Shown in pieces: positions 10,116 through 14,883 of a stretch of 34,951 bases of DNA (positions within the stretch are counted from its first letter, which is position 1; every line of letters starts with the position of its first letter). The notes beneath the pieces were generated by a model, which saw nothing but the letters and a program-made list of their open reading frames with translations, was not told the DNA's origin and ran no database searches. The stretch lies in contig CADCJI010000029.1 of NCBI GenBank assembly GCA_902801625.1, forward strand, positions 1-34,951. The letters are read 5' to 3'. The DNA comes from an uncultured Bacteroidia bacterium (GTDB lineage Bacteria; Bacteroidota; Bacteroidia; Bacteroidales; F082). Both the position numbers and the translations under genes were made by a program.

Positions 10116-11536
10116 ATGTCTAATAACCAATCAATTATTACAAACGCAGAGTATTTCCCAAGCATGCTTCCCGCTGAGGAACTTGCTCAATTGAAGTTTA
10201 TCCCAACATTTCCCGAATTTGTAACATGGATAGAACAAAAGTGGGCTGACCTGCCTTGCTTATCCGACACGGTCAACACATTGAATTATAAGCAAACCTG
10301 TGACATCATTGCCCGTAAACGCGCTTTGCTGAACGAATTAGGCCTGCAAAAAGGTGACAAGGTGGCTATTCTCGACAACATTACCGTCGAGGCAGTTGAG
10401 ATGTTTCTCGCCGTCACGTCAGCAGGCTATGTGGCCATCAACCTGCCTTCGCAGCTGCCTCCTCAAGCCATCGTGGGCTGCTGCATGAAGTTTGGCGTAA
10501 AGGTGTTGGCTTACGGCAAGGACTTCGCGCTATCTTCTTCACAGGTGGTACCACGGGTGCTCCTAAAGGTGCGGTCCTACCCCATCGTGCCTTGATGCGC
10601 GGTGCCTTGAATGGCGTATACGCCCCAGGCAGCCAACTCGGTCATCACCGTTATGCCTGCGTGTTGCCCTTGAGCCATGTGTTCGGCCTCGTCCGCAGCA
10701 CATTGTCTGTCCTGATGGAAGGCGGTGCCTGGTTCTCTGCTGGCAACACCAAAGAGACGGTCACCAAGTTCCCCGTCATTCGTCCTACCTGCCTCGTTGC
10801 CGTTCCCGGTATTTGCGAGATTTTGCTTGGTCTGGTCAAGATGTACGGAAAGCCTTTCCTGGGTGGTCAACTGGGATTTATTATCTCGGGTGCCGCCAAT
10901 GTGCCCCCGAAACTCATCGGCGAGTTCGATGAGTTGGGCATCCACCTCTTTGCGGGATATGGCATGACCGAAGGCGCCAACCTCACCACCGGCAATATCG
11001 ATGTGAAGTCGCGTCCCACCTCAGTCGGCAAGCTCTATCCTGAACAAGAAGCGAAAGTGGTCGATGGCGAGTTGTGGTTCCGTGGCGATAATGTATTCCT
11101 CGGTTACTATGGCGACCCTGAAAAGACGGCCGAAACCCTTACTGAAGATGGTTGGATCAAGACGGGCGACCTTGTGCGTTTTGACGAGGAAGGCTATATG
11201 TACATCGTTGGCCGCATCAAGAACCTCATCATCCTTTCCAACGGTGAGAATGTCAGCCCCGAGAGCATCGAAGAGCCGTTCTACAAAGACCCGAAGCTCC
11301 GCGACTGCCTCGTCAAGGAAGACGAATTGGATGGCCGTCAGGTGATTGCCATAGAGATTCTGCCACGCATGGAGGAGTTTGGCAACGGTCCATGGGAAGA
11401 AGTGGAAGCCTATTTCAAGGATTTGGTCGGCAAAGTCAACGCTGAGCTGCCCACAACCCACCAAGTAAGCAAAGTCACTGTGCGTAAAGAGGACTTCAAG
11501 CGTACTGGCGCCATGAAAGTCTCAAGAAACCAATAA
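10116..11536 (+). pseudogene. Acyl-CoA/acyl-ACP synthetase (AMP-binding), internal deletion with frameshift
   Basis: Frame 1 (from the ATG at 10116) codes for about 137 residues of an ANL-superfamily N terminus (LNYKQTCDIIARKRALLNEL, GDKVAILDNITVEAVEMFLA) and then loses homology near base 10527. A second frame begins with the AMP-binding P-loop, AIFFTGGTTGAPKGAVLP, and runs to 11536 with GYGMTEGA, WIKTGDL (adenylate-binding Asp) and the C-terminal lysine region (FKRTGAMKVSR). Compared with normal family members, some 30-60 residues between the two parts are missing and the frame changes at the junction. As written, the enzyme could not be made whole. The family activates fatty acids with ATP; the adjacent ACP suggests loading acyl chains onto it. 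An assembly error is possible. Confidence 0.8.
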
Positions 11537-11539
11537 GCC

Positions 11540-11782
11540 ATGGAAAGAGAACAAATTTTCAACGAGTTGAAGGAAATCCTGAAGCTCATCAAGCCATCAG
11601 CTGATTTCAGTAAGATCAACGAGGACTCACAGCTTGTCCGCGATGTGGGCTTGGATTCATTGACCATCTTGCTGCTGAGCCTCGCTATCGAGAACAAGTT
11701 CGCTTTCAAGTTCGAAGGCAATCCCAAGTTCACCACGGTGGGCGAAGTCATTGACTTTATCAGCGCGAATTCAACCCTTTAA
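11540..11782 (+). CDS. Acyl carrier protein
   Basis: An 80-residue acidic protein with the phosphopantetheine attachment motif DVGLDSLT (Ser at residue 40), preceded by an acidic first helix and followed by the usual IENKF...FTTVGEVIDFI end. It begins 3 bases after the acyl-activating gene and ends 4 bases before the GNAT-like gene, so the three are one operon. It is unlikely to be the housekeeping AcpP given this setting. The probable job is to carry acyl chains for sphingolipid synthesis, as the dedicated ACP does in the Caulobacter ceramide locus. Confidence 0.9.
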   Translation: MEREQIFNELKEILKLIKPSADFSKINEDSQLVRDVGLDSLTILLLSLAIENKFAFKFEGNPKFTTVGEVIDFISANSTL

Positions 11783-12902: not shown

Positions 12903-13690
12903 CCGTAATAACTACCCAAAATTGCAGCAAACCATTTTGCCGGCAAGATTTGTTTCAGGAACACAGAGAGCCGTTGTTCGAAGGAGGCAACGACATAACC
13001 ATGTTTAGGATTCTTTTTCTTAAGGATTGTGCTGATTTTTCGGGCTAGTACCTGTGGCTTCAGCCCGCCTGTCTCGTCATGTTCCACCTTGTCAATCGCT
13101 TTTTGATAGGCTGGATAGGCTTGAAGCACCTCGTCTTTGGTTGCTTTCTTTCGGCTGCCCGTGAAACCTGTCGAGAAGTCACCAGGACGAATCACGGTTA
13201 CGGTGATGCCAAACGGCTTTGTCTCCAGGCGCAGGGCCTCGCAATAACCTTCGATGGCGAACTTGCTGGCCGAATAGAAACCTTGAAACGGCAGCCCCAT
13301 CAAGCCACCGATAGAGCTGAGCGCAACGATTTTGCCTGAGCCTTGTTTCCTCATGTGAGGCAGCACAGCGTCAACACAATGCACCAAACCCATGAAGTTG
13401 GCATCCATCTGTTCCCTGATTTCTTCCTCTGTGGCGAACTCCAAGGGTCCGCCGATGCCCATGCCGGCATTGTTGACCAAAACATCAATTCGGCATTCAG
13501 CCTCGATGATTTGTTGCACTGCCTGTTGCACCGCTGCGGCGTCGCGGACATCCAAACGAAGGTATTTCACTTGTGGCAATGGCGCGACTTCACGGCGCAC
13601 TGTCCCGTAAACGACATAACCTTCCTGCGAGAGTAAACGGGCAGTCTCCAAACCAAAACCCGAGGATATCCCTGTGATGAATATGACCAT
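12899..13690 (-). CDS. Short-chain dehydrogenase/reductase, candidate sphingolipid reductase
   Basis: A 263-residue classical SDR: nucleotide-binding TGISSGFG (residues about 6-13), NNAG, the catalytic Ser in VALSSIGG and the YSASK active-site Tyr/Lys, plus a C-terminal extension that ends in a hydrophobic FLKQILPAKWFAAILGSY, which may touch the membrane. Its ATG overlaps the SPT stop codon (TAATG), a strong sign of translational coupling. The expected step is reduction of a 3-keto long-chain base or of keto-ceramide, as shown for KDSR-like and CerR enzymes. Sequence alone cannot say which. Confidence 0.85.
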   Translation of the reverse strand: MVIFITGISSGFGLETARLLSQEGYVVYGTVRREVAPLPQVKYLRLDVRDAAAVQQAVQQIIEAECRIDVLVNNAGMGIGGPLEFATEEEIREQMDANFMGLVHCVDAVLPHMRKQGSGKIVALSSIGGLMGLPFQGFYSASKFAIEGYCEALRLETKPFGITVTVIRPGDFSTGFTGSRKKATKDEVLQAYPAYQKAIDKVEHDETGGLKPQVLARKISTILKKKNPKHGYVVASFEQRLSVFLKQILPAKWFAAILGSYYG

Positions 13691-14883
13691 TAATCAATGA
13701 TTTGAGCTTCCTTAAACGCTTTGGTGATTTTGTCCAATGCCTCATCCACTTGTTCGAAAGTGTGAGTGGCCATCAAGGCAAAGCGGATTAAGGTATCGTT
13801 TTCGGGTACAGCAGGTGCGATGACTGGGGTGACAAAAACACCATCATCCAACAACCTGTTGCAGAGCCAGAAAGCCTTCTCTGAGCTTCTTACAAACAGC
13901 GGAATAATCGGGGTCTCGCTCTTGCCGGTATCGAAACCCCGCTCTTTGAACTGCTTTCGGGCATAGTTGCTCACATCCCAGAGATGCTGTATGCGCTCCG
14001 GCTCTTCCAACATGATGTCGATGGCCTTGCTGACCGAAGCCACATTGGCAGGCGGCATGCTGGCACTGAAAATCAGCGAGCGGGCATTGTGTTTCAGGTA
14101 ATTGATGGTGTCGAAATCGGAAGCAATGAAACCGCCCAACGACCCAAACGACTTGGAGAAGGTGCCCATAATCAGATCCACTTTGTCGGTCAGGCCGAAA
14201 TGGTCGGCTGTACCCCTACCCTGTCGTCCGAGGACACCCAAGGAATGGGCGTCGTCAATCATGATGTCGGCATCGTATTGCTCTGCCAAAGCGACCATCT
14301 CCGGCAATGGAACAATGTCGCCTTCCATCGAGAAGATACCGTCGGCAACAATCAATTTGACGGAGTCGGGAGTGCACAGTTTCAGCTTCGCCTCCAAACC
14401 GTCCATATCATTATGGTTGTACTTCCAGACCTTACCAAACGAAAGTCGGCTACCCTCGATGATAGAGGCATGGTCGAGGCTATCCAAGAGCAGATAATCA
14501 TTTCGACCACAAAGTGCCGAAACCACACCAAGATTCACCTGAAATCCAGTGCTGAAACAAACGGCTGCCTCTTTGCCGACCAGTGTAGCCAACTTTTCCT
14601 CCAAAGCGACATGAATATCAAGTGTACCATTGAGGAAACGGGAACCCGAGCAGCTGGTGCCGTATTTCCTGATAGCCTCGATGGCGGCTTCCTTCAGCCG
14701 TGGGTCGTTGGCCAAGCCAAGATAGCTGTTGGAACCAAACATCAACACATCTTTACCCTTGATCCTCACCACCGTGCTTTGTTCCGACTCGATGGGTTTA
14801 TAATAAGGGTAAATCCCTTTTGCCTGGGCCTCTTGCGGAGCAGTATATCTTGCACAGTTTTTCCTCAATCTGTTAGTCTTCAT
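13690..14883 (-). CDS. Serine palmitoyltransferase / alpha-oxoamine synthase
   Basis: A 397-residue PLP enzyme. Visible features are [13 protein letters not shown] near residue 50, [13 protein letters not shown] (His 138 stacks on PLP), [10 protein letters not shown] (Asp 211) and [12 protein letters not shown] with the PLP lysine at residue 244. It fits the alpha-oxoamine synthase family; length and the N-terminal [11 protein letters not shown] segment match Bacteroidetes serine palmitoyltransferase, which condenses serine with an acyl thioester as the first sphingolipid step. Alternatives are KBL or BioF, but the gene neighbourhood (SDR, ACP, acyl activation) favours SPT. The ATG at 14883 follows a -7 box by 28 bases, and the longer upstream frame was rejected. 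Confidence 0.88.

Follow-up and report, generated by a model that had tools for sequence, protein, structure and literature searches.

Known systems and organisation of the locus

Sphingolipids of Bacteroidales affect host immunity and lipid metabolism. The genes described here, which probably direct the synthesis of dihydroceramide, lie on a 34,951-nucleotide contig (CADCJI010000029.1; the window) of an uncultured Bacteroidales bacterium of the family F082 (assembly GCA_902801625.1). In Caulobacter crescentus and Rhodobacteria, the genes of the pathway are spt (CC_1162), encoding serine palmitoyltransferase (SPT), acpR (CC_1163) for an acyl carrier protein (ACP), cerR (CC_1164) for a reductase, aasR (CC_1165) for an acyl-activating enzyme, and cerS (CC_1154) for a GNAT-type N-acyltransferase. 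The legend to Fig. 4 of PMC11324152 places SPT, ACP, AasR, CerR and LptF2/LptG2 in the CC_1154 region as well, and the legend to Fig. 9 of PMC9386255 lists the Escherichia coli gene yghO (ECD_02850) together with CC_1154 as an N-acyltransferase gene. The known enzymes of Bacteroides thetaiotaomicron include SPT (BT_0870) and a 3-ketosphinganine reductase (BT_0972); ceramide synthase (CerS) is counted among the identified Bacteroides enzymes in the introduction of PMC9278070, and B. fragilis BF9343_4218 serves as the CerS reference in the methods of a paper on P. copri (PMC10865984). PMC11334938 describes the three pathway genes of Bacteroidota as not close together, with CerS not clustered with SPT. 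In the literature surveyed, which covered few subscription papers, no Bacteroidales locus was found in which genes for an acyl-activating enzyme (AAE), an ACP and a GNAT protein adjoin SPT.

Such an arrangement is present in the window, which is contig C29 of a source genome (G000; 3.58 Mb, 62 contigs, completeness 84%); its closest named relatives are uncultured Bacteroidales metagenome-assembled genomes, mainly from ruminant gut sites, including the rumen (e.g. RUG245). On the plus strand, an AAE gene, which is split between two frames (10116-10595 and 10592-11536), is followed after 3 bases by the gene of an 80-residue ACP (11540-11782) and, after 4 more, by that of a 371-residue GNAT-like protein, GNAT1 (11787-12902). 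These genes face a minus-strand pair encoding a short-chain dehydrogenase (SDR; 12899-13690) and SPT (13690-14883). The GNAT1 and SDR genes overlap by 4 bases at their 3' ends (12899-12902), and the stop codon of SPT and the start codon of the SDR gene share the junction TAATG. The ACP scores 24.2 bits against Pfam PP-binding (cut-off 20.8), and its predicted phosphopantetheine-bearing serine 40 lies in the motif GLDS. All of these features, namely the ACP with its serine, the GNAT-like reading frame, the 3' overlap and the TAATG junction, had been described in an earlier note on this DNA and were found in the sequence as described.

The explanation that we favour, with moderate confidence, is that the locus makes dihydroceramide. 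SPT would form 3-ketosphinganine from serine and an acyl thioester, the SDR of the SPT operon would reduce it to sphinganine, and GNAT1 would then N-acylate the long-chain base. Within the GNAT1 operon, the AAE and the small ACP would together provide a dedicated acyl-ACP, chiefly to GNAT1 and not to SPT. The local AAE being broken or mis-assembled, its activity would need to come from an open paralogue, which is found in a second GNAT-AAE-ACP module of the same genome (contig C49).

Serine palmitoyltransferase and the reductase

The pyridoxal phosphate enzyme of the minus-strand pair is, by sequence, a serine palmitoyltransferase. It scores 659.7 bits against NF047600, the equivalog model of the Bacteroidota-type SPT (cut-off 640), and its top matches among PDB sequences, 8guh and 3a2b, are both SPT (E 4e-166 and 6e-166; 556 and 555 bits). 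Lower scores were obtained with 8s1y, named both BioF and KBL (291 bits), 7v58 (KBL; 256 bits), 28eh (cysteate-C-fatty acyltransferase; 256 bits) and 5vnx (BioF; 217 bits), and the SPT sequences of the Sphingomonas type reached at most 260 bits. Assignment of the enzyme to KBL or BioF is rejected on these scores, so that the identity given in the earlier note withstood the comparison that had been set for it beforehand.

The best NCBIfam match of the SDR is the KdsR model NF049977, aligned over the full length with 323.3 bits, which is below the cut-off of 400. In Pfam it scores 159.5 bits with adh_short versus 31.1 with Epimerase, unlike the reductase of a Caulobacter-like cluster in Roseomonas, for which the values are 29.3 and 87.3, respectively. 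With the epimerase-type reductase of E. coli as the query, no match was obtained in G000 and a single weak one, of 108 residues (E 5e-4), in the related genome G021. The protein is thus predicted to be a classical KdsR-like reductase of the 3-ketosphinganine reductase type; the extended SDR family to which CerR belongs is not its best family, and the proposal of the earlier note that it is the equivalent of CerR has to be abandoned. An SDR of the same kind is encoded within 1.5 kb of SPT at all 30 loci examined in the genus and at 11 of the 29 examined in the order (30 of 45 and 29 of 49 SPT loci, respectively, were surveyed with 1.5 kb flanks for AAE, ACP and SDR genes).

GNAT1, a candidate ceramide synthase

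The sequence of CC_1154 was represented in the comparisons by YghO and by one Roseomonas gene, selected by its neighbours; the latter is located about 10 kb from SPT and adjoins LptF/LptG permease genes. GNAT1 aligns end to end with both, with 30% identity over 386 columns to YghO (E 2e-48) and 28% to the Roseomonas homologue (E 6e-41). Its only Pfam domain is Acetyltransf_1, an AlphaFold2 model (pLDDT 87) has a tandem GNAT fold, and no NCBIfam family was found for GNAT1, for its paralogues GNAT2 and GNAT3, or for the Roseomonas gene. Among the matches listed, GNAT1 is 45% identical to a protein of B. finegoldii, 44% to one of Phocaeicola, 40% to one of Chloroflexota and 37% to one of Vescimonas.

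In a tree of 52 rows, from which row L069, nearly identical to L037, was omitted, GNAT1, GNAT2 and GNAT3 fall in a group of 41 rows (support 100/99) with Bacteroides, Prevotella, Chloroflexota and Vescimonas proteins, a Bacteroidales/Chloroflexota/Firmicutes clade. YghO forms another clade (99/99) with proteins of Pseudomonas veronii, Roseomonas, Diaphorobacter, Sphingomonas and Acidisoma, which is weakly joined by those of Aureispira, Rubrobacter, Streptomyces and Ensifer (79/72). Genes linked to SPT occur in both groups, and the group of GNAT1 mixes linked and unlinked members. GNAT1 is accordingly placed as a homologue of the bacterial ceramide synthases from a different subfamily, and its substrate is not given by homology alone. 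The function proposed for it in the earlier note is supported by the homology to the YghO/CC_1154 family and by the linkage of the family to SPT in many genomes, and is qualified by its place outside the YghO clade; GNAT1 is best called a candidate ceramide synthase.

The paralogue GNAT2 is encoded on contig C49 of G000 and GNAT3 on contig C3, where the latter (L038:7341-11039) is accompanied by DegV-like, PlsX-like (FA_synthesis) and ACP genes. A DegV gene also adjoins the GNAT gene of a Chloroflexota relative.

Linkage and co-occurrence

The association of these genes was examined in 148 genomes of the order and 99 of the genus, GNAT1 being defined in the genus by at least 64% identity and the GNAT family in the order by E values up to 1e-25; all counts given below ignore kinship. 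Among the matches listed for the order, SPT was present in 49 of the 148 genomes and the GNAT family in 122, including all 49 genomes with SPT versus 73 of the 99 without it. A GNAT-family gene was located within 3 kb of 13 of the 49 SPT genes, in 11 families, again among the matches listed, where 0.19 would be expected under simple random placement with rounded genome sizes and the listed copies. Since this physical linkage to SPT extends over 11 families of the order, a single compact gene set is available for testing N-acylation.

In the genus, SPT was found in 42 genomes, GNAT1 in 40, and both in 36; SPT thus accompanies 36 of the 40 genomes with GNAT1 versus 6 of the 59 others. At 33 of the 45 SPT loci of the genus a GNAT-family gene lies within 6 kb, and three genomes (G016, G056 and G101) have a second SPT gene, with a GNAT gene near both copies. 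On contig C18 of G016, the SPT, SDR, AAE, ACP and GNAT1 genes are closely spaced and all point in the same direction. The arrangement was also followed around GNAT1 in named related loci (the best 80 of 123, of which 71 had enough flanking sequence). AAE and ACP genes were each present by GNAT1 in 69 of the 71; SPT was found no more than 6 kb away in 27 of them, convergent in 26 as it is in the window. These frequencies indicate that the arrangement is conserved and not due to chance.

Annotated plasmid records were opened around the GNAT-family gene in 14 cases, hand-picked from 44 matched records of which 40 were listed. An alpha-oxoamine-synthase-type (SPT-type) gene was present within about 10 kb of it in eight, from Roseomonas, Aureispira, Pseudomonas veronii, Rubrobacter, Sphingomonas, Streptomyces, Acidisoma and E. 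coli. A different layout, with SPT followed by two tandem GNAT-family genes, was observed on contig C147 of genome G117 and contig C2 of G221, both of one other Bacteroidales family.

The acyl-activating enzyme and its carrier protein

The AAE gene of the window is not intact, contrary to the earlier note. Its 5' part (10116-10595, plus strand) covers positions 6-99 of the Pfam AMP-binding profile, and the 3' part (10592-11536, plus strand), in another frame, covers positions 204-384 together with AMP-binding_C_3. Compared with the open gene at L021, the corresponding locus of genome G021, the window lacks 97 bases near position 10528, and the final codons of the 5' part are frame-shifted past this deletion. 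The window therefore does not hold the complete equivalent of the Caulobacter set that had been claimed for it; the tight plus-strand operon, also proposed there, stands as regards the spacing of the genes and the AAE-ACP-GNAT order in relatives, which would suit co-transcription, although its first gene is split over two frames.

The lesion may be either a real deletion or an assembly error. Over 314 residues the 3' part is 99% identical to the L021 enzyme, with 43 synonymous codon differences and one non-synonymous, which argues that the lesion is recent or is an assembly error. In the same contig an unrelated gene for a small GNAT acetyltransferase (6982-7483, plus strand) is split by one extra base near position 7339, whereas in L021 it is a single open frame of 183 residues, so that assembly error is possible for both lesions. 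It might be supposed that the N-acylation part of the pathway is decaying in this strain and that the 97-base, frame-shifting deletion marks the beginning of operon loss. The codon differences in the remaining part of the gene, the open frames of GNAT1, SDR and SPT and the second frameshift make this very improbable. Of the 47 AAE matches in the genus, 40 cover the full length with no stop, two (G080 and G014) have an internal stop, and five, including the window copy, are partial. In G000 an open AAE gene is encoded on contig C49, next to GNAT2 and an ACP gene; its product is 85% identical to the L021 enzyme, which was used for this comparison in place of the broken window gene, and might substitute for the latter. 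The enzyme, of about 500 residues, has acyl-CoA ligases as its best NCBIfam matches, all below cut-off, and among 198 genomes of the phylum a match at E 1e-110 was found in the window's own genome only.

The distribution of the AAE in the genus follows GNAT1: it occurs in 39 of the 40 genomes with GNAT1 versus 5 of the 59 others, in none of the six that have SPT and lack GNAT1, and in all four that have GNAT1 and lack SPT. In the order, no AAE or ACP gene was found within 1.5 kb of the 29 SPT genes examined at a cut-off of E 1e-10, which could miss a divergent ACP. Taken together, these data point to the acyltransferase, rather than SPT, as the customer of the AAE-ACP pair, with the ACP as the probable acyl donor. 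Radka et al. (PMC9304779) argue that lipid synthesis in Alistipes, and probably in other Bacteroidetes, draws on acyl-ACP rather than acyl-CoA, which fits such a supply; PMC11324152 states that the SPTs of Bacteroidetes use acyl-CoA.

Alternatively, the pair could act like AasR and AcpR and load the acyl chain for SPT, with GNAT1 using acyl-CoA or housekeeping acyl-ACP. Rhodobacteria, where the dedicated ACP serves SPT according to PMC9386255, provide a direct precedent, and the co-directional cluster of G016 would suit this function. Under the AasR-AcpR model, the enzyme and its carrier protein would be expected to accompany SPT; for the AAE the genus displays the reverse (none of six and four of four), and the order-level survey, with its limit for divergent ACPs, also speaks against it; we regard this alternative as improbable.

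An extension of the favoured explanation may be considered, possible although doubtful, in which Bacteroidales have a ceramide synthase with its own acyl-ACP pair. Here the wiring of Caulobacter would be reversed, with the AAE-loaded ACP serving the N-acyltransferase instead of SPT; the GNAT1 and GNAT2 modules would maintain two N-acyl pools of ceramides, and relatives lacking SPT would acylate long-chain bases taken from their neighbours.

Counter-evidence and a possible other product

Several observations weigh against dihydroceramide synthesis by this route. Among them are the broken AAE gene of the window and the neglect of kinship in the counts above. GNAT1 is outside the YghO clade and is nearer to the Chloroflexota and Vescimonas proteins than to YghO, and for these clade-mates no SPT was found within the 6 kb of sequence viewed on either flank. 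In five of the 14 opened plasmid records no SPT-type gene was seen, and in the Diaphorobacter record only a fatty acyl-AMP ligase and an ACP appear, at its edge, with no SPT in the stretch seen; the SPT-linked label that this gene bears in the tree enters none of the counts. GNAT2-like genes, a class defined by a hand-drawn score band rather than as a proven clade and including, for example, the gene of L064 that the tree places elsewhere, are within 6 kb of SPT more often than GNAT1 (24 versus 11 of the 45 genus loci, some having both). Four genomes, G094 (100% complete), G072 (96%), G048 (83%) and G109 (71%), encode AAE and GNAT1 and have no SPT above the NF047600 cut-off. In L181, the record matching G094 by coordinates, no SPT or SDR gene was found in its 21 kb, and the pairwise ratios of non-synonymous to synonymous substitution rates (dN/dS) are low, at 0.03 for GNAT1 compared with the window copy and 0.025 for the AAE compared with that of L130. 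The Rhodobacteria precedent for the use of the ACP belongs here too, as do the CerR homologues reported for Bacteroides in PMC10191378, which make the order of reduction before acylation tentative.

Some of these observations would be explained if AAE, ACP and GNAT1 made another N-acylated lipid, from an amino acid or a different amine, and GNAT2 on contig C49 were the true ceramide synthase. This would account for the more frequent proximity of GNAT2-like genes to SPT, for the retention of AAE and GNAT1 in the four genomes without SPT above the cut-off, at low dN/dS in L181, and for the 44 of the 71 named GNAT1 loci that have no SPT within 6 kb. On contig C49 (L037:5897-11390), GNAT2, AAE and ACP are part of a larger lipid locus with genes for a CDP-alcohol phosphatidyltransferase, a GtrA-like protein and two acyltransferases; the first and last of these are further points for this alternative. 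It would have to accommodate the presence of SPT in most genomes with GNAT1 and its rarity elsewhere in the genus, and the convergent GNAT1-SPT pairs of the named loci would be puzzling if the two genes had no function in common. We consider it rather unlikely, and dihydroceramide synthesis involving GNAT1 remains the explanation that we prefer.

Neighbouring genes

Upstream of the AAE gene, a TonB-dependent receptor is encoded on the plus strand (7891-9984). Two minus-strand genes beyond SPT (15092-16198 and 16307-17179) encode proteins with Por_Secre_tail C-terminal sorting tails, one of which also has an AhpC/TSA domain. A Sigma-70 family gene (18021-18955, minus strand) is overlapped by a small gene without a Pfam match, which, as a guess, is possibly an anti-sigma factor.

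Comparison with known systems

Like the Caulobacter system, the locus combines an SPT, an ACP, an acyl-activating enzyme, a reductase and a GNAT-type N-acyltransferase, the last being homologous to YghO, the listed counterpart of CC_1154. Unlike that system, it has a classical SDR in place of an epimerase-type reductase, its SPT belongs to the Bacteroidota (CFB) type, and its AAE and ACP track the acyltransferase and not SPT; its AAE is nearest to acyl-CoA ligases, at scores below cut-off, whereas the annotation of the Roseomonas counterpart is fatty acyl-AMP ligase. In the E. coli locus of yghO (NZ_MG591698.1), a GNAT-family gene likewise adjoins genes for an SPT-type enzyme, an ACP, a reductase and an activating enzyme, but the reductase and the activating enzyme carry the annotations epimerase-type and fatty acyl-AMP ligase, respectively, and the GNAT proteins are 30% identical.

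The SPT above the Bacteroidota equivalog cut-off is a feature shared with Bacteroides, as are the relatives of GNAT1 in B. finegoldii and Phocaeicola; the reductase is nearest to the KdsR model (BT_0972 type), at a score below its cut-off. In B. thetaiotaomicron, by contrast, BT_0972 is not clustered with SPT according to PMC9278070, and in B. finegoldii the SPT and GNAT genes were found on different records, whereas in the window the SPT-SDR pair faces AAE, ACP and GNAT1. Should the acyltransferase indeed be supplied by the AAE and ACP, fatty acids activated from outside could determine the N-acyl chain, for example in the rumen. The pathway itself is already known from other bacteria; what is new is the arrangement of the locus, together with the indications that the AAE and ACP serve the ceramide-type enzyme.

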